Assembly (NCBI GenBank): GCA_030263455.1
Contig: SZOZ01000003.1
Location: forward strand, 62,001-126,000
DNA: 64,000 nucleotides
From: Synechococcales cyanobacterium CNB
Lineage (GTDB): Bacteria > Planctomycetota > Phycisphaerae > Phycisphaerales > UBA1924
Direction of reading: 5' to 3'
Shown here piece by piece: positions 3,877 to 62,068 of the stretch (position 1 is its first letter; the number at the start of each line of letters is the position of its first letter). Made by a program: the position numbers and the translations under genes. The notes beneath the pieces are model-generated. The model saw nothing but the letters and a program-made list of their open reading frames with translations, was not told where the DNA came from and did no database searches.

Positions 3877-4923
3877 ATGAAGGCGAGAAACCTGTTTGTC
3901 TGTGCTGGGATGTGTCTGGGTCTCGCCGGCGCCGCGATCGCCGGTGACAAGCCGCAGCCCCAGGCCAAGGCCATCGACGGGATGGTCAAGCCGGTCCGCG
4001 TGGCGCCGGTCTCCCTCGTGGACGGCCAGCTGAAGATCATGGGCGAGTGGCGCGACGCCTCCTCGTTCGGCCGCGTTGATGAGGTCTGCGACCTCCTGTG
4101 GGACGCCGTCCAGCCCACCGACAACTGCGCGTCCGGCTTCCCGCCGGTCGGTGGGCCTGAGTGCGGCATCGGCGAGGGCTCCCGCTGGTACTTCGGCACC
4201 GTGTACGTGAACCCCTTCTCCGCCAACGACATGTCGGACGCGCTGGAGGACTTCTCTGCCCGCGCCGCGTGGGTGTTCTGGTGGGGCATGACCTCTCAGG
4301 CCTACGTCGCGATCCTGACCTCCGATGAGTTCATCTCGCTCGCGTGCGACCTCGCGGTTGCTGCGGCGGACGGCTGGGTCTTTGACTACGGCGTCCTGCC
4401 CCGCGGCTTCTGGTACTCCGAGTTCTCCTTCGGCGACGGCTCGCCGGACGGCTGGAACCTGGTCAAGGGCGGTGACGGCTCGAACGTCTACTTCCTGTCG
4501 GACTTCTTCGACGGCGCGTTCTTCTACCTGGCTACCTTCAACTGCCACTTCGGCCTCTGGGGCACCTCCGATGACGGCGGCCTCCCCGGGCGCCCCGGCA
4601 CCAACGACTCGCAGCAGCACGACGACGACTTCCCGACCGACGGCGTCCACACGATGCCCGATGAGTGCTACTACTACGACTTCGGAGTCTGCCCCGACCC
4701 GCTCTGCAACATGATGGCCTTCTGGGGCAACACCGGCGGCAGCGAGGACTGCTACGTCGACTGCAACAACGACGGCGCGATCAACTCGCTCGACTTCATC
4801 TGCTTCCTCAACCTCTACACCTCGAACAACCCGCTGGCCGACTGCAACGGCGACACCAACATCAACTCGCTCGACTTCATCTGCTTCCTCAACCTCTACA
4901 CCAACCCGCCCTGCACCGACTGA
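3877..4923 (+). CDS. Secreted protein with C-terminal dockerin-type EF-hand repeats
   Basis: 348 residues. Residues 1-22 form a signal peptide (MKARNLFVCAG...AIAG). The middle is acidic, aromatic- and cysteine-rich and matches no family I know. The C-terminus (about 293-345) carries two calcium-loop repeats of dockerin type (DCNNDGAINSLD and DCNGDTNINSLD, each followed by FICFLNLYT). Such tails are common in planctomycete exported proteins, where they probably serve sorting or anchoring rather than a cellulosome; that role is inference. A strong Shine-Dalgarno precedes the ATG and a perfect terminator follows, so it is a single-gene unit with signs of high expression. Specific function unknown. 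Confidence 0.85.
   Translation: MKARNLFVCAGMCLGLAGAAIAGDKPQPQAKAIDGMVKPVRVAPVSLVDGQLKIMGEWRDASSFGRVDEVCDLLWDAVQPTDNCASGFPPVGGPECGIGEGSRWYFGTVYVNPFSANDMSDALEDFSARAAWVFWWGMTSQAYVAILTSDEFISLACDLAVAAADGWVFDYGVLPRGFWYSEFSFGDGSPDGWNLVKGGDGSNVYFLSDFFDGAFFYLATFNCHFGLWGTSDDGGLPGRPGTNDSQQHDDDFPTDGVHTMPDECYYYDFGVCPDPLCNMMAFWGNTGGSEDCYVDCNNDGAINSLDFICFLNLYTSNNPLADCNGDTNINSLDFICFLNLYTNPPCTD
4780..4902 (+). repeat. Two identical 42-base direct repeats encoding the dockerin-type motif
   Basis: Bases 4780-4821 and 4861-4902 are identical over 42 positions, 81 bases (27 codons) apart. They encode INSLDFICFLNLYT twice. Identity includes all third codon positions, while the DNA between the copies differs, which points to recent duplication or gene conversion. 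Confidence 0.9.
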
Positions 4924-6181: not shown

Positions 6182-7318
6182 ATGCGTGACCAGAGGCTGG
6201 ATCGGCTCGCGGACGTTCTCGTGCGCTATTCGACGCGGGTGAAGCGGGGGGACGTGGTGAGCGTGCACTCGGAGCCGGCCGCGCTGCCGCTGGTGGAGGC
6301 GGTGTTCGAGGCCGTGCTGCGGACGGGAGGGCACCCGGTCTGGGCGGCGCGGAGCGACGCTCTGGACGTTGTGTTGATGGAGCACGCGAGCGAGGAGCAG
6401 TTGGGATGGGTCTCCCCGTTCGATGCGCACCGCGTGGAGACGATGGACGTGCATATCGGGCTGTGGGCGGACGTGAACACGCGGTCGATGAGCCGATTCG
6501 AAGCGGGGCGGCTGGCGAAGCGGCAGCAGTCGCGCAAGGGGTACATGGACCGGTTCCTGACGCGGTTCGCGGAGGGGAAACTGCGGTGGGTGGGGACGCA
6601 GTACCCGACGCTCGCCAGCGCGCAGGATGCGGAGATGAGCCTGCCGCAGTACGAGCGGTTCGTGTTCGAGGCGGGGTTGCTGCACCTGCCTGACCCTGTG
6701 GCGGCGTGGACGGCGATCCACGAGCGGCAGCGGCGCGTGTGCGAGTACCTCGGCGCGAAGCGGGAACTGCGGTTCCGCGTGCCGCCGGGCGACGGGCACG
6801 ACGGGACGGACCTGCGCGTGAACGTGGACCCGTCGCGGTCGAAGTGGATCAACTGCGCCGGGCACGAGAACTTTCCCGACGGCGAGGTGTTCACGGGGCC
6901 GCAGGGGGCGGACGGGCACGTGAACTACACGTTCCCGGCGGTGTATCACGGGCGCGAAGTGGAGGGCGTGCGGCTGGCGTTCAGGGGCGGGCGCGTGGTG
7001 GATGCCTCGGCGAGGAAGAACGAGGCGTACCTGATCGCGATGCTGGACCAGGACGAGGGGGCGCGCACGCTGGGCGAGATCGCCATCGGGACGAACTACG
7101 CCATCAAGGAGTTCTCGCGCAACACGCTCTTCGACGAGAAGATCGGCGGGACGTTCCACGCGGCCGTGGGGGCGGGCTACCCGGAGAGCGGGAGCGCGAA
7201 CAAGTCCGCGTTGCATTGGGACATGGTGTGCGACCTGCGCACGGGCGGGACGATCGAGGCGGACGGGGAGGTGTTCCACAGGGACGGCACGTTCGTCATC
7301 GGGGCCTCGCGGGAGTAA
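6182..7318 (+). CDS. M29-family metallo-aminopeptidase
   Basis: 378 residues, close to the usual 370-410 of thermophilic aminopeptidase T/S type enzymes, which use two metal ions to remove N-terminal residues. Recognised by the family order: N-terminal DQRLDRLADVLVRYSTRVKRGD, then NFPDGEVFTGP, the GEIAIGTN segment, GGTFHAAVGAGYPE and the C-terminal HWDMVCDLR. The ATG at 6182 is preceded by CGGAGG (6171-6176) and a TACACT box (6159-6164), so the leader is short; the upstream in-frame start at 6101 is not needed. A remnant of a second M29 gene end lies at 10012-10089, on the other side of the 7.3-9.7 kb cassette. Confidence 0.92.
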   Translation: MRDQRLDRLADVLVRYSTRVKRGDVVSVHSEPAALPLVEAVFEAVLRTGGHPVWAARSDALDVVLMEHASEEQLGWVSPFDAHRVETMDVHIGLWADVNTRSMSRFEAGRLAKRQQSRKGYMDRFLTRFAEGKLRWVGTQYPTLASAQDAEMSLPQYERFVFEAGLLHLPDPVAAWTAIHERQRRVCEYLGAKRELRFRVPPGDGHDGTDLRVNVDPSRSKWINCAGHENFPDGEVFTGPQGADGHVNYTFPAVYHGREVEGVRLAFRGGRVVDASARKNEAYLIAMLDQDEGARTLGEIAIGTNYAIKEFSRNTLFDEKIGGTFHAAVGAGYPESGSANKSALHWDMVCDLRTGGTIEADGEVFHRDGTFVIGASRE

Positions 7319-7334
7319 CGACGTAGTTCGTAGT

Positions 7335-8531
7335 TCAGAAATCGGCTCCGGAAAGACCGTTGCGTGTCGATTCGATGTTCATTCCTGCCGCACCCCACGG
7401 GCGCTGTACAGCAAGGGCGGGGTCAAGCCGTTTCCACGCGACAAGTCTGGCTGAGAGGTCGCCGAGGCCGACCGGGGTGAACTCACTCGGAGGCACGCCC
7501 GTTGGCCCTCCGAGGTCGAAGACGAGAAGGCCCTTGTTCGAGGGATATCGAAGATGAGCCTGGAACGTAGGGTGTACGTGCTGCAATAGATGGAGAGGTT
7601 GTCCTACGGCGTCATCATCGCGCCAGAATGCGGGACGGGCGAACACCGTTGAAGTGATCTGATAATGAGATGAGATGATGAACTCGGGATAACCGCGGTA
7701 ATCACGAAGATACTCCGCTCGTCCTGGCGGCTCGATTGCGCTCCTATGAGCGCCGAAATAGTCGGGCACAACAACGCTCGTCCAGTACCAGCGTTGCGTA
7801 AGAAAGAAGGGACCGTCGATCTCAAAGTCCCTGATGCGAATCGGGTCGTACGGCTTCTTGGGTGTTCCAAAGAACGGGAAACGCTCGTGATGGTCAGCGG
7901 TGTACATCGCTAGAGCCGTGTTGAGCTGACGCCCGGTCTCGAGATTGCGGGCTAGCCGCGCGTTCTCAAGGGTGCGAGAAAGGGCCGGAAGCGCCAGGGC
8001 AATGAGCAGGCTTACAACGACGATCACGGCGAGCATCTCGAGGAGAGTGAAGCCTCCAGCGTCTTGCCGTAAAACGCTCCCGATTGCGGGCGAGGCTTCT
8101 CGCCGCCGGTCTGTCGATGCTCGCTCCTTGATGATGCTCCAGCCTGCGAAACTGATCAGCCCGAGATTGCGCAAGATGCCTGCCGCAGCCTCGGAGCGTG
8201 GTTCGGCCTTGGGTACGCCGAAACACCCACAACTCGGAGCGCCGCTGCTCGCAGCAAGGATTCCGAGAACAACTGTGAACAGCGCCAGCATCACGGTAGC
8301 CATCCACAGCCCGAGGAGGTGATGGGGGCCGACAACGACCAAGATCGCAACGCTGACTTCTAGCCCGGCTAGTGTCGCAACTGCGGCGTCGGCCACGGCA
8401 GGAGTGGATGAAAGTGGGGGGAAGAGATAGAGCAGCACGCCGGAGGCGTGCTGCGGCGTGACTGCCTTCAAGACGCCGGCTAGAGCAAACGCTGCGGCGA
8501 TAACCATCAGTATGACTGTGCGGGCTAGCAT
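7335..8531 (-). CDS. MauE-like membrane domain fused to a type IV pseudopilin
   Basis: 398 residues in one uninterrupted frame. Residues 1-135 have about four membrane helices (4-22, 50-67, 72-94, 118-134) and a CGCFG motif at 101-105, as in MauE/DoxX-type redox-associated membrane proteins; MauE is needed for disulfide-rich methylamine dehydrogenase small subunit formation. After a basic linker comes a complete prepilin start, GG|FTLLEMLAVI at 159-170, with Glu at +5, a hydrophobic helix and a pseudopilin body to the end. With four helices both ends of the MauE part would be cytoplasmic, the side where prepilin peptidase cuts, so cleavage could release the pilin. It is the last gene of the three-gene set. 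The fusion is seen directly; function is inferred. Confidence 0.75.
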   Translation of the reverse strand: MLARTVILMVIAAAFALAGVLKAVTPQHASGVLLYLFPPLSSTPAVADAAVATLAGLEVSVAILVVVGPHHLLGLWMATVMLALFTVVLGILAASSGAPSCGCFGVPKAEPRSEAAAGILRNLGLISFAGWSIIKERASTDRRREASPAIGSVLRQDAGGFTLLEMLAVIVVVSLLIALALPALSRTLENARLARNLETGRQLNTALAMYTADHHERFPFFGTPKKPYDPIRIRDFEIDGPFFLTQRWYWTSVVVPDYFGAHRSAIEPPGRAEYLRDYRGYPEFIISSHYQITSTVFARPAFWRDDDAVGQPLHLLQHVHPTFQAHLRYPSNKGLLVFDLGGPTGVPPSEFTPVGLGDLSARLVAWKRLDPALAVQRPWGAAGMNIESTRNGLSGADF

Positions 8532-8541
8532 CTCCAGGGCT

Positions 8542-9456
8542 TCACAGCTCGAACATGACTCCCCGCTCGGGGGTCGTATTCAGCACGTTCATTCTCCATA
8601 GCCACCATTCGCCTGACGGAACCTGATAGTATAGGAAGGAGAACGGGTAACGTTCCCCCGACTGAAGCTCGAGGATCACGCCGACCAAGGCGACGCGCAG
8701 GCGGCCATGGCGTTGCAAAGCCTGCATCGCGCCGCCTTCTGGGTCGGACCACCAGTTCCGGAAGCCGATCTGCGAGCGCCCCATCCAGACATCCCCAGGT
8801 AGCGTGCCTGAAAGAACGGGCAGGCGGATTTCCTGACCGAACTCGATCTGTCCGAACGCGATCGCCAAGCCGGTCCCCTCCGCCGGAAGGGCAACGGGCA
8901 TTGCCGCGCCGTTGAATCGGTCTCGGGCGACAGTCCAAAGGCGATCAAACACGGACACAATATGATCGTCGCCGGGATAGGATTCCTGAAAGAGAAACTC
9001 GTAGTCTTGCGGAACCAATTCCCGACGCATGGCGGCGGCGTCGCGGAAGACATAGCCCGAGGATTCTCGCCATGCCCTGTATGCCTCGGGAGACTGCTGG
9101 ATCAGCCGGAAGTAAATAGTGTCGCCTGTGAGATTGATGAGACGAAGCGTGTCGTTGTCAGCCGCAGCAAGGTCGTCACCGGGCGGTAGTGCGAGATTCG
9201 CGAGGTGGGGGCGAACGCTTGAGGCGGTTGGAAAGTCCCGAAAAGGCGCCATCGTAATCCGACGATAGTTTTCTTGGCCGAGATCGATCGCTTCCCGGAT
9301 CTCTCGTTCGTGCGTACGGCGTGATTCCGCAACGGCATGGCGGTGCTGGATGGCACGCAGAAACGCGATACTTGCAACGGCTAGGGCGACTAGTGCTGCT
9401 AGGAGAAGCCCCCAGCGTCGGCGATGGGTGGGTTCATTGGCCGGTTCAATGCTCAT
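8542..9456 (-). CDS. Membrane-anchored protein of unknown function
   Basis: 304 residues. A short polar N-terminus (MSIEPANEPTHRRR) precedes one membrane helix at about 15-33; the rest is soluble and probably outside the membrane by the positive-inside rule. No recognised motif; the C-terminal half is rich in beta-prone and aromatic residues (for example FSFLYYQVPSGEWWLW). It sits 12 bases after the 12-cysteine gene and 10 bases before the MauE-pseudopilin gene, so the three are almost certainly co-transcribed. I do not recognise the family. Confidence 0.8.
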   Translation of the reverse strand: MSIEPANEPTHRRRWGLLLAALVALAVASIAFLRAIQHRHAVAESRRTHEREIREAIDLGQENYRRITMAPFRDFPTASSVRPHLANLALPPGDDLAAADNDTLRLINLTGDTIYFRLIQQSPEAYRAWRESSGYVFRDAAAMRRELVPQDYEFLFQESYPGDDHIVSVFDRLWTVARDRFNGAAMPVALPAEGTGLAIAFGQIEFGQEIRLPVLSGTLPGDVWMGRSQIGFRNWWSDPEGGAMQALQRHGRLRVALVGVILELQSGERYPFSFLYYQVPSGEWWLWRMNVLNTTPERGVMFEL

Positions 9457-9468
9457 GACTCGAGCAGT

Positions 9469-9726
9469 TCACGAGGTGAAGATGCAGTGCTGGCCAGCGG
9501 GCGGATTGTCGCAATCGTACTGAAGGTTGCAGCAGGTGCATGTACGCGGACCGCCAACAGGTCCACAGCAGGCGCAGCTGCCCTGACATCCGCCAGGCGT
9601 GAATCCGCCGCATGAGTAGCCTCCACAGGAACAGGGAGCCATGAGGGAATCGCTTCCCATGACGACGGACGCGAGCAGCAGCACGATACCAACGACGAGA
9701 ATCCACCAAGCACCGAGCTTCGACAT
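9469..9726 (-). CDS. Small 12-cysteine exported or membrane-anchored protein
   Basis: 85 residues. An N-terminal hydrophobic helix (about 5-23, WWILVVGIVLLLASVV) acts as signal or anchor; the remaining 60 residues hold 12 cysteines (32, 34, 39, 47, 51, 53, 54, 63, 65, 66, 72, 81) among many Gly and Pro. It has GGGAG (in the minus-strand sense) before the ATG at 9726 and leads the three-gene unit. Twelve cysteines is also the count of the methylamine dehydrogenase small subunit, whose maturation needs MauE, but the two tryptophans of that cofactor are absent from the mature part, so it is not that enzyme. A disulfide-rich secreted peptide is the best reading. Small size lowers certainty, but composition and spacing are gene-like. 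Confidence 0.72.
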   Translation of the reverse strand: MSKLGAWWILVVGIVLLLASVVMGSDSLMAPCSCGGYSCGGFTPGGCQGSCACCGPVGGPRTCTCCNLQYDCDNPPAGQHCIFTS

Positions 9727-9746
9727 GATCGTTCTCCCAGATTGAC

Positions 9747-9752
9747 ATTATC
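9747..9752 (-). promoter_or_regulatory. Candidate -10 box of the 12-cysteine gene
   Basis: On the minus strand GATAAT occurs 20 bases before the ATG at 9726. A matching -35 at the normal distance is weak. It is the best box in the upstream AT-rich stretch. Confidence 0.25.
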
Positions 9753-9901
9753 CATGTTGCCAGAATGAGGTCATCGTATCAATAGCTTTGGGTTCTTTTC
9801 GGACGGTCAGTCGGCCAGCGGGGGCAGTTGAATGCAAACAAAACGCTAACGTATATCGGCGTATGGTACTACTGCCTGGTAGGATCGTCATATCGCGCTG
9901 A

Positions 9902-9928
9902 GGGCATCGGGGATGGTGTCCGATGCCC
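9902..9928. repeat. Perfect 9-bp inverted repeat near the cassette border
   Basis: GGGCATCGG (9902-9910), 9-base loop, CCGATGCCC (9920-9928). No T tract follows on either strand, so a terminator is unlikely. It marks the point where base composition returns to GC-rich. Confidence 0.55.
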
Positions 9929-10011
9929 CAACAGCGTGTATTCCGCGTGCAACGGCAGCAACGGTCCAGACGAGCGAGGTGGCCATCGGTTGCTCTAACT
10001 CGTGGTCTGGC

Positions 10012-10089
10012 TGGACGATCGAGGCCGAGGGCGAGGTGTTCCACGGGGACGGGCGGTTCACGCGCGACGGCTTCCCCGCGCCGGCGTGA
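10012..10089 (+). pseudogene. 3' remnant of a second M29 aminopeptidase gene
   Basis: The frame reads W-TIEAEGEVFHGDGRF and ends after 26 codons at TGA 10087-10089. It matches the C-terminus of the intact M29 gene (GTIEADGEVFHRDGTF). At DNA level 10014-10060 agrees with 7248-7294 at about 40 of 47 positions, several changes being at third codon positions, as expected for a diverged coding paralogue. The rest of that gene is missing upstream. Confidence 0.65.
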
Positions 10090-10611
10090 TCAGATCAGGC
10101 CGAAGAGGTCGAGGATGGCCGCGCCGATGCCGACGACCAGCACGGCGACGACGAGGCCGATGACGGCCCAGGCGATGACGTGGCCCGCGGTGGAGCCTTC
10201 GAGGCGTTCGAGGGGGGGGGCGAGCGTCCACTGGACAGCGCCCATCGCGCCGGATACGAGGGCGTCGGCGTCCGCGCCGCATTCGGGGCAGGGGGTGCCG
10301 TCGGGCAGCCCGGAGAGGTCGTAGCCGCAGACCGGGCAGACGGGCGGCAGGCCCTGCTCGTCGCGGCGGCGTGCGGCCTGGGCGGCGATCTCGGCGAGCA
10401 TGGCGCGGGCGCGGGCGTGGTCGGCGGCGCGGACCATGACGGAGAGGGGCGTGGCGATGCCGGCGATGGGGATGACCTGGCCGAAGCCGCCGGTGACGGT
10501 TGCCGCGACGCCCATGGCGCGGAGGGAGTGGACGAGGAGCTCGGCCTCGAACTCGACGGGCGTGTGCGCGACGGGGATCATGCGGTTTGGGTCGGGCGTG
10601 CGCCTGGGCAT
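10090..10611 (-). CDS. Zinc-ribbon membrane protein with a DUF2007-like N-terminal domain
   Basis: 173 residues from the ATG at 10611. The N-terminal part (about 12-75, VAHTPVEFEAELLVHSLRAMG) resembles the DUF2007 'putative signal transducing' fold. It is followed by a zinc ribbon CPVCGYDLSG...CPECG at about 97-117 and a C-terminal membrane helix (about 147-168). Proteins with 'CPVCGYDL' ribbons are frequent in planctomycetes; role unknown. It lies 7 bases after sppA on the same strand and is probably co-transcribed with it. A nine-G run (10212-10220) falls at Pro codons. Confidence 0.75.
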   Translation of the reverse strand: MPRRTPDPNRMIPVAHTPVEFEAELLVHSLRAMGVAATVTGGFGQVIPIAGIATPLSVMVRAADHARARAMLAEIAAQAARRRDEQGLPPVCPVCGYDLSGLPDGTPCPECGADADALVSGAMGAVQWTLAPPLERLEGSTAGHVIAWAVIGLVVAVLVVGIGAAILDLFGLI

Positions 10612-28453: not shown

Positions 28454-29239
28454 TCAGAACCTGTCCATCCAGTTGGGCTGCGGGAGATAGGTGAAGTCGT
28501 CGGTGGTGTGGGGGCGGTCGGGCGGAACGGGCAGCGCGATGCGGACGTGGCCGTCGAGGAAGCCGAGGGTCGCCTGCACGGCCTTGGGCGAGTACCAGCG
28601 CTGGCCGCGGTCGTCGCCGTCGTCGTAGTTGTAGATGGGGTGCGAGCCGACGACCCAGGTCTTCGTCGTGTCATGGACCGGCGGCATGCGTCCGCCCTTG
28701 GGAGGCACGAGGGTGGGGTAGTCGTCGCCCCAGGGGTTGGTGTCCGGGGCGTGATCGTTGAGGGTGTAGCTCGCGCCGAGCAGGTCGTACATGGATTCGC
28801 AGCGCTCGAAGCCGGGGATGGGGAGGTTCTCGGCGCCCTTGTCGGCGGGTGATCGGCAGGGCTCGACCTCGGCGACGGTGTCGGCGTCGTCGGGGGGGGG
28901 CGTCCAGTCGATGAGGTAGCGGTTGAGGGGTCGGCGTTCCGCGCCGTACTCGTCGATCTGGAGCATGGGCAGCGTGCCCTTCTTGCCGGCGAAGAGCGTG
29001 CCGATGACGGTCGGCTCGCCGTCGAAGCCGGGCACGAGCACCTGCGGCAGGTGCTCGCGGTGATCGTGGAGATACATGGCGATGGCGAGGTTGATCTGGC
29101 CGGTGCGCGAGCCGCAGAGCGTGTTGCGTGCGGTCTGCCTGGCCGCGCCGAGCGCGGGGAGCAGGATGCCGACGAGCAGGGCGATGATGGCGATGACGAC
29201 GAGCAGTTCGATGAGGGTGAAGGCGCGTGGGCGTGCCAT
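28454..29239 (-). CDS. Type II secretion/type IV pseudopilin-like protein
   Basis: 261 residues. The prepilin motif [15 protein letters not shown] lies at residues 6-19, with Glu at +5 and Ala instead of the usual Gly before the cut. The rest is a soluble domain with [18 protein letters not shown] and a final [13 protein letters not shown], the planctomycete 'DG' pseudopilin pattern. Planctomycete genomes carry many such paralogues; the job of each is unknown. Lies 29 bases after adk on the same strand. Confidence 0.85.
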
Positions 29240-49381: not shown

Positions 49382-50251
49382 ATGCGGCAGACCATGGAGA
49401 GGATCACGACGCGAGCCAGCCATCGGAGCGTCGTCGGTGGCGGACGTCCGATCGCGTGCGCGTTCACGCTGATCGAGCTGTTGGTCGTCGTCGCGATCAT
49501 CGCCCTCCTGGTCGGCCTCCTGCTGCCAGCGCTGGCGCACGCCCGCGAAGCGGGCAGGGCGACGGTCTGCCTCGCCAACCAGAAGAGCCTGGCGACGGCG
49601 TTCGTCATGTACGCCGACGACAACGACGACGGGATCGTGTCGTCATGGACAGATCGGCGCGACCACGACCACAGTTGGGCCGACTGGCCCATGCTCCCCG
49701 ACGGCGGATACATGAGCACCTACGCCCTCCAGCAGGCGAAGGACACGGAAGGCCACAAGAGGGGCATCCGCAACGGCAAACTCTACCCCTACCTGGAGAA
49801 CGTCGAGGCGTATCACTGCCCTTCCGACCTCCGCGCGCGCGGGCGCGGCGTCGCCGGTGCGATCGCCTTCCGAACCTACTCGATGCCCAACTGGGTCAGC
49901 GGGGACGAGAAGTGGGAGTCGTACATCGGCGGGCACACGGTGACGCGCCGGATGAGCGCGGTGCAGTTCCCGACATCGAAGTTCGTTTTCATCGAAGAGT
50001 CCGATCCGCGGGGCGTGAACATGGATTCGTGGGTCATGCACCTCGACCAGGAGAAGTGGATCGACCCTCTGACCGTGTGGCACAAGGACACCAGCACGAT
50101 CGGGTACGCCGACGGTCATGCCGAGGTCCACGTGTGGCAGGATCGGCGGACCATCACCATGAGTCGGAACCAGAAGTTCGATGTTCCGTGCCCCGGCAAC
50201 GCGGACTGGGCGTACCTGGCGGGGGCGTGGATGAACACGAAGCGGAACTGA
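49382..50251 (+). CDS. Type IV pseudopilin-like protein with DG motif
   Basis: 289 residues. A 26-residue leader ends in [15 protein letters not shown], a prepilin cut site with Ala at -1, Glu at +5. The soluble part has YAPDD-like [21 protein letters not shown] and [14 protein letters not shown], the 'DGH' form common in planctomycete secretion pseudopilins. An alternative ATG at residue 5 would shorten the leader. Stands alone between the PAC2 and GH43 genes. Confidence 0.87.
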
Positions 50252-61417: not shown

Positions 61418-62068
61418 TTACCGCTTTCGCGCGACGACGTGGAAGACGTGCCAGCGCTTGGGTGTGCCGAAGGCGTCTGTGCCGGGCTTCTCGTCCTCGT
61501 CGAAGCGTTCGAGGTCGAAGGGGTCGAGCATCGCGAGGGCGTGTTCGTGTGTCTGATGCGAGCGGTCGGGGAGCGCGGCCCAAGTGTCGCGGTCGCCGAA
61601 CAACTGCCCGGCAAACCGTCCGCCGGGACGGATCGCGGCGACGATCGACGCCCAGAGCGCGTCGAAGGCATGCGGCGGGCAGAAGGGCAGCGAGAAACTC
61701 GCGTTCACAAGATCGCACTCGTGGAGCGTCAGGCCCTCGAACGGGGCGTGGAGCGTCGCGAGCCTGTCGCGGTGTGGGATGTCCGGGCGTTGGAGAAGCC
61801 GACGGAAGGCTTCGGAGTGGCCGTCGATGGCGAGCACGCGCCAGCCGCGCCGGAGGAGTTCCGCCGTGTCGCGTCCCTCGCCGCAGCCGAGATCAACGGC
61901 GAAGCGCGGCGCGGGCGGCGGGGGTTCACGTTCAAATCGTTCGAGCGCGAGGAGGAGGGTATCGCGCGGGGGCTTGCCTGATACGGCGTCGAAGTAGCCC
62001 GGCCAGTCGCGCTGCGCCGCGTAGGCCTGCGCAGGCAACCCCGGCGGCAGAGTCGAAGCGGGGGACAT
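61418..62068 (-). CDS. Class I SAM-dependent methyltransferase
   Basis: 216 residues from the ATG at 62068 (a GTG at 62092 in frame would overlap ubiD). SAM motif I DLGCGEGRDTAELL near 60-75, motif II VLAIDG, then ALWASIVAAIRPGGRF. Similar in layout to TehB-like small methyltransferases; substrate unknown. Divergent from ubiD, with a 40-base gap to the ABC ATPase. Confidence 0.82.
   Translation of the reverse strand: MSPASTLPPGLPAQAYAAQRDWPGYFDAVSGKPPRDTLLLALERFEREPPPPAPRFAVDLGCGEGRDTAELLRRGWRVLAIDGHSEAFRRLLQRPDIPHRDRLATLHAPFEGLTLHECDLVNASFSLPFCPPHAFDALWASIVAAIRPGGRFAGQLFGDRDTWAALPDRSHQTHEHALAMLDPFDLERFDEDEKPGTDAFGTPKRWHVFHVVARKR

Follow-up and report, generated by a model that had tools for sequence, protein, structure and literature searches.

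A three-gene cassette from Synechococcales cyanobacterium CNB encodes a small cysteine-rich exported peptide, a membrane-anchored partner, and a MauE domain fused to a prepilin. It belongs to a family of units that are gained and lost whole between sister species and that recur, in the same gene order, across the family of the host. As two of the three proteins have no known family and literature searches found no described system with this gene set, it is classed here as a gene system of a new kind with a proposed mechanism. The stretch of DNA analysed (the window) is 64,000 nucleotides long and corresponds to positions 62,001–126,000 of contig SZOZ01000003.1; unless a locus is named, coordinates are window positions.

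Organisation of the cassette

Three open reading frames (ORFs) follow one another in tandem on the minus strand, with intergenic gaps of 12 and 10 nt in the ORF listing of the window. The first (9469..9726), delimited from the ORF and an alignment of relatives, encodes an 85-aa Cys-rich exported peptide with 12 cysteines. The middle gene (8542..9456) encodes a 304-aa anchored partner, which the ORF and an AlphaFold2 model resolve into an N-terminal membrane helix and a periplasmic α+β domain. The third (7335..8531), recognised by its Pfam matches and relatives, encodes the 398-aa MauE-prepilin fusion. These frames lie exactly as given in a first-pass annotation of the sequence, which had described three tightly spaced minus-strand genes. 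That annotation is also correct in calling the first product a small exported 12-Cys protein, given its length, cysteine number and likely signal peptide, and the third a fused MauE and pilin protein, as both Pfam domains score above cut-off in one frame.

The cassette is flanked on one side by an aminopeptidase-like gene of 378 aa (6182..7318, plus strand), whose 3′ end is identified by alignment as the insertion target, and on the other by a 163-aa gene of no assigned family (10090..10581, minus strand). The G+C content of the cassette region is ~57–62%, compared with ~66–75% in the flanks. The interval from the peptide gene to the right end of the insert contains a perfect inverted repeat of 9 bp, GGGCATCGG...CCGATGCCC (9900–9932), which may act as a terminator or belong to an end sequence. 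Elsewhere in the window, two more prepilin-type genes (28454–29239 and 49382–50251) stand without MauE or Cys-rich neighbours, and an exported 348-aa protein (3877–4923) ends in two dockerin-like repeats (DCNxDGxINSLDFICFLNLY).

Conservation and variation of the cassette

The fusion was used as a query against 163 genomes of the host's family. Full-length, single-frame relatives of ~400–440 codons are found in many of these genomes, often several per genome, and about 35 of 40 fusion loci repeat the order Cys-rich exported peptide, 280–315-aa protein with an N-terminal membrane helix, fusion. The identity of these relatives to the window proteins is ~15–35%, at which they are still alignable. 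An accidental gene fusion was rejected as an explanation, the fusion being conserved in ~40 loci. The middle gene is present in 51 of the 163 genomes and in 34 of 74 genera of the family; phylum-wide, convincing matches are otherwise confined to two genomes from other families of the same order.

The peptide frame is conserved as well. By one strict rule, 23 of 34 middle genes have a Cys-rich ORF with a hydrophobic N-terminus immediately upstream, compared with only 1 of 344 ordinary genes, a null against which a chance ORF was rejected. The one usable ortholog pair gives a dN/dS of ~0.09 (0.097/1.13) for this frame, and ortholog-pair dN/dS indicates purifying selection on all three cassette proteins. 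The first-pass annotation had proposed a dedicated unit around a disulfide-rich exported peptide, had looked to co-occurrence of the genes in other genomes, and had named conservation of the small frame beforehand as decisive. The recurrence of the order in the family bears out co-occurrence, the frame proves conserved by its dN/dS and invariant Cys columns, and the conserved order together with the even cysteine counts described below upholds the dedicated unit. It had also suggested a search for nearby MauD or thioredoxin-like partners; no such gene is seen beside the cassettes whose neighbours were listed.

In the host genome, which has ~14 such cassettes, 17 MauE genes score above cut-off and a prepilin motif is found no more than 3 kb from 14 of them (null 0.10, p ~9e-12; 68 prepilin motifs in 3.2 Mb). 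This genome is unusually rich in MauE, since other genomes sampled across the phylum have 0–8 matches. The parts are not always fused. One host cassette (L018) carries MauE, a 10-Cys peptide, a middle protein and a pilin as four separate genes, and unfused neighbours are also found in other genomes as a 12-Cys peptide, middle protein, MauE and pilin (L194) or as a middle protein, MauE and pilin (L186). The first-pass annotation had held that separate, unrelated MauE and pilin genes would speak against a unit. Separate they are in some cassettes, but not unrelated, and their adjacency within the same cassette supports a link between the two. Because MauE and pilin adjoin as separate genes in these other cassettes, the fusion is, on gene order, the joined form of two genes already belonging together.

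A sister type of cassette is also present in the host genome. L009 and L016 encode a C-terminally anchored protein of 350–380 aa, a Cys-rich protein of 126–128 aa, MauE and a pilin, and parts of this arrangement recur in L013, L020 and L022. L011, L014 and two units of L021 encode a pilin, a Cys-rich protein of 130–147 aa, a C-terminally anchored protein and MauE. The C-terminally anchored proteins have no family in Pfam or PADLOC. Among cassettes with a middle gene, L191, L193 and L197 have no nearby MauE and L192 no nearby pilin, so a cassette does not strictly require all four parts; the missing MauE or pilin could be supplied from elsewhere in the genome.

The Cys-rich peptide

The window peptide has a likely signal peptide at residues 1–24, cut by a simple ad hoc rule rather than a trained predictor, and a mature part of ~61 aa that holds all 12 cysteines (C32, C34, C39, C47, C51, C53, C54, C63, C65, C66, C72, C81). 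The alignment of relatives reveals dense CxC and CCCC motifs and a Cys framework that is invariant at several columns, with strong divergence of the loops around the fixed cysteines. The peptide has no family in Pfam, NCBIfam or PADLOC and only a negligible match in PHROGs (E 0.055), and its profile has no match in the PDB.

Cysteine numbers among the relatives indicate pairing. The count is even in 33 of 33 aligned mature peptides, with 8 (n = 2), 10 (n = 21) or 12 (n = 10) cysteines, a pattern of pairing that is short of proof; the signal region was removed by the simple rule, twelve of its cuts being adjusted manually, and the uncorrected rule gives 32 of 33 even. Alignment columns 19 and 53 (C32 and C51 of the window peptide) are both occupied in 16 peptides and both empty in 17 (phi 1.0). 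At least five changes of this pair map onto the fusion tree, each affecting both cysteines, mostly on weakly supported branches, with only one independent pair on starred branches. One further cysteine shifts position instead of vanishing (columns 68 vs. 104, phi −0.91). The even counts and the paired gain and loss of C32 and C51 favour disulfides rather than metal binding, and the pairing of the 8–12 cysteines into 4–6 disulfides is strongly supported by these patterns. For the peptide, AlphaFold2 gives a low-confidence model (pTM 0.43) that is too poor for testing disulfide connectivity.

The middle anchored protein

The middle protein has no family in Pfam, NCBIfam, PADLOC or PHROGs and its profile has no match in the PDB. 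Its AlphaFold2 model is confident (mean pLDDT 92.9) and consists of the membrane helix and the α+β domain. NTF2-like entries dominate the structural list from VIA, albeit weakly, with a best Z of 5.2 at 4.7 Å rmsd, and Foldseek against the PDB and viral models gives no significant match. A weak resemblance to NTF2-like or cystatin-like folds in the model is thus a lead rather than an assignment.

Pairwise distances between cassettes connect the middle protein to its neighbours. Mantel correlations are 0.62 for peptide and middle protein, 0.69 for middle protein and pilin, and 0.52 for peptide and pilin, with a lower value of 0.35 for peptide and MauE. Peptide, middle protein and pilin are therefore likely to form a matched set. 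The low MauE-peptide correlation is as expected if MauE is a generic oxidant, and would also fit a part that does not touch the peptide.

The MauE-prepilin fusion

The MauE domain (PF07291, E 6e-16) occupies residues 5–133 of the fusion (8133..8519, minus strand) and scores 59.3 bits against a cut-off of 27. A simple hydropathy rule counts four hydrophobic segments in this domain of the window protein, and likewise four in 22 of 36 fusions. A CxC motif lies between segments 3 and 4 in 35 of the 36; in the window protein it is C101-G-C103 (8223..8231, minus strand), which alignment and hydropathy place on the predicted periplasmic side. The linker from MauE to the pilin is basic, with a mean net charge of ~+3 over the 36 fusions.

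The prepilin part begins with an N_methyl match (PF07963) at residues 159–181, scoring 23.4 bits against a cut-off of 21.2. This match and the alignment predict a mature pilin of residues 161–398 (7338..8051, minus strand) following a cleavage site between G160 and F161 (G160/F161-T-L-L-E165). Among the fusions, the residue at −1 is Gly (23) or Ala (13) and the Glu at +5 is invariant; Ala at −1, found in one third of them, may slow prepilin cleavage. The pilin resembles pseudopilins in its N-terminal helix only. PHROG matches of the fusion are confined to this helix, and a single-protein scan matched ordinary pilins alone, again through the N-terminal helix, with no close relative.

Prepilin peptidase acts at the cytoplasmic face of the membrane. 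A cytoplasmic N-terminus followed by four helices is predicted to place the linker and cleavage site at this face and the CxC outside. Given this topology and the cleavage motif, prepilin peptidase probably splits the fusion, freeing the pilin and leaving MauE as a separate membrane protein. The host genome contains eight near-full-length matches to the assembly ATPase T2SSE and one to the prepilin peptidase Peptidase_A24, so the pilin could use this machinery in trans.

Gain and loss between sister species

Comparison with two congeners, G007 and G008, reveals the ends of the inserted DNA. In G007 the aminopeptidase gene and the 163-aa gene are directly adjacent with no cassette between them. 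Close to the 3′ end of the aminopeptidase gene, window and G007 are identical over the 44 nt leading up to the break (7244..7287, plus strand), beyond which they differ. An extra segment of ~2.77 kb (7288..10052), delimited by alignment and G+C, follows; it includes a new end for the aminopeptidase gene and closes with a second copy of the 44 nt (10009..10052, plus strand) that has six mismatches. Positions 10053–10089 then correspond to the displaced original 3′ end of the aminopeptidase gene, as in G007, and the last ten or so residues of the aminopeptidase are replaced in the window. In G008 both the aminopeptidase gene and the cassette are missing, and only the last codons of the former remain beside the 163-aa gene (L200, G008:C234, 811–1100).

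Two features, the insert's low G+C and the replacement of the aminopeptidase 3′ end, favour an insertion in the lineage of the window. They argue against a deletion in G007 between the two 44-nt repeats, which retains a small residual probability. By either route the unit was gained or lost whole.

Other host cassettes behave similarly. L012 is absent from both congeners; the 15-bp sequence TCGCCGACGCGTTCA flanks its insert on both sides in the host genome and is present as one copy at the empty site of G008. L018 is likewise missing from the two congeners, and G008 also lacks L017 and L023 and has 0.67 kb in place of L009. Gap size indicates that G007 has its L014, L015, L016, L020 and L023 sites filled, and G008 those of L010, L016 and one L021 unit; in G007, L078 is clearly orthologous to L017. 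These occupied and empty sites across the three genomes show that cassettes are gained and lost as whole units between sister species. Terminal repeats are evident for the window cassette (44 nt) and L012 (15 nt) and are not clear at other sites, and the unit contains neither a recombinase gene nor any other gene for mobility.

Some sites hold other genes in the congeners. At the L010 site, G007 has a PIN-like gene accompanied by small partner genes, together resembling a toxin-antitoxin system (L213, G007:C20, 643–1953), which suggests an insertion hot spot. At the L009 site, unrelated genes encode a membrane protein of 320 aa and a PhnB-like protein of 164 aa in G007 (L214, 634–3049) and a DoxX-like membrane protein in G008 (L212, 1159–1824).

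Comparison with known systems

MauE has a proposed role in the maturation of methylamine dehydrogenase (PMC7794033). The same source reports MauE and MauD homologues in candidate RiPP clusters of Streptomyces identified by decRiPPter and mentions a disulfide role of MauE as speculation (PMC7794033). The likeness to these clusters is a MauE beside a small putative peptide, which in the present cassette is conserved, Cys-rich and exported. However, the decRiPPter clusters are computational candidates in Actinobacteria for which the passages seen mention neither a prepilin nor an NTF2-like partner (PMC7794033). The present unit, by contrast, is mobile and has a conserved Cys pattern.

The mau cluster itself shares with the cassette a clear MauE domain, which makes up the first 133 residues of the fusion, and a disulfide-rich partner. 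The small subunit of methylamine dehydrogenase, which depends on MauE, is said to be disulfide-rich. Unlike the mau cluster, the cassettes have no MauD and no dehydrogenase subunits in the neighbourhoods listed, they join MauE to a prepilin or place the two genes side by side, and their peptide is short and bears no sequence relationship to the mau partner.

With type II pseudopilins and type IV pilins (PF07963, GspG, ComGC) the fusion shares the cleavage motif, the membrane helix and the Glu at +5, but its N-terminal leader is a whole MauE protein. It falls far below the cut-offs of the GspG and ComGC equivalogs (30.1 vs. 88.85 and 28.8 vs. 75 bits, respectively). The Verru_Chthon cassette (TIGR02596), which we take to be a lineage-specific multi-gene cassette with a prepilin-like member, gives a weak match to the N-terminus of protein D (26.4 bits against a cut-off of 70) through the generic pilin helix only; its remaining members are unrelated to the present cassette as far as the family scans show. 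PADLOC, which covers anti-phage defence, matches none of the three window proteins, nor any of three cassette relatives, and literature searches found no paper joining MauE with prepilin peptidase.

Proposed mechanism and alternative explanations

The gene content suggests a mobile, multi-copy family of cassettes that makes a secreted, fully disulfide-bonded mini-protein, a mechanism that we put, taken whole, at a little short of an even chance. The signal sequence would export the peptide to the periplasm, where its 8–12 cysteines would form 4–6 disulfides. MauE, by analogy with its proposed role in methylamine dehydrogenase maturation, may supply or relay the oxidising equivalents through its predicted periplasmic CxC. 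The anchored NTF2-like protein, which co-diversifies with the peptide and the pilin, may be the peptide's cognate partner in the periplasm, with folding, hand-over or self-protection as its most likely task. The pilin would be made as a tail on MauE and, going by topology and motif, cut by prepilin peptidase at G160/F161, MauE thereby acting as an oversized leader and the two proteins being released one to one. The freed pilin could then enter a pseudopilus of the host's shared type II secretion or type IV pilus machinery, which would export or present the folded peptide. MauE oxidation and pilus-like export or display, both part of the first-pass proposal, are consistent with the predicted topology, the assembly ATPases and the prepilin peptidase, with the biochemistry of MauE itself being only proposed. 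That the units form a new class of mobile peptide-secretion cassettes, each with its own disulfide-knotted mini-protein, membrane oxidant and pseudopilin, the latter two made as a polyprotein that prepilin peptidase splits, and with a shared secretion pseudopilus taking interchangeable cargo, is put forward tentatively.

Of the alternatives, antagonism of relatives and surface display are the strongest. The peptide could serve bacteriocin-like antagonism, as a released disulfide-locked toxin against close relatives with the anchored NTF2-like protein as immunity and cassette sets differing by species. The differing presence of cassettes between sister species, the diverged loops, the cognate co-diversification of peptide and middle protein, the low G+C of the insert, and the PIN-like toxin with its small partner at one orthologous site (L213) would all suit such a role. 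However, the peptide is nearly unchanged in the one same-genus ortholog pair (98% identity, dN 0.011), which does not point to an arms race; no peptidase-ABC exporter, known bacteriocin family or PADLOC match was found, and the NTF2-like match is weak, leaving antagonism somewhat unlikely. Surface display or adhesion, with the peptide as a tip domain on a pilus or pseudopilus and one binding specificity per cassette, is unlikely. It would explain why each typical cassette has a dedicated pilin with an assembly-competent Glu at +5, why both middle protein and peptide co-diversify with the pilin, and the pilus machinery genes of the host, but the likeness to pseudopilins is limited to the N-terminal helix and any filament assembly is putative.

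Two further explanations are very improbable. A Cys-rich protein that binds a metal or cofactor, like metallothionein or TTQ-bearing subunits, with MauE as its cofactor-maturation partner, would accord with the dense CxC and CCCC motifs and with the link of MauE to methylamine dehydrogenase maturation (PMC7794033). Metal binding by the peptide was rejected on the even cysteine parity, to which the loss of cysteines in pairs is added; the peptide profile matched no methylamine dehydrogenase chain among the solved structures of the PDB, and no mau genes were seen nearby. A DNA element that is purely selfish, carrying cargo without a function in the host, is just as hard to credit. Flanking repeats and empty sites in sister species would fit it, but the unit lacks a mobility gene, and the purifying selection on all three proteins and the conserved Cys pairing imply a selected function of the cargo.

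If the secretion mechanism is correct, it represents a modular logic new to the literature, in which small interchangeable cassettes plug into a shared type II/type IV machine and each brings its own oxidant and its own pilin. It bears on the chemistry of MauE, on the abundance of pseudopilins in planctomycete-type genomes, and on the folding and secretion of disulfide-rich peptides in diderm bacteria. The peptides would also provide a ready set of natural disulfide scaffolds with 4–6 bonds and variable loops.

The host genome has a single well-scoring MauE gene outside a cassette (L019, G000:C6, 4041–4529), which is possibly of the ancestral type. The genes before it encode a repeated (H)DFGxIxD motif that recalls DUF1573 proteins.
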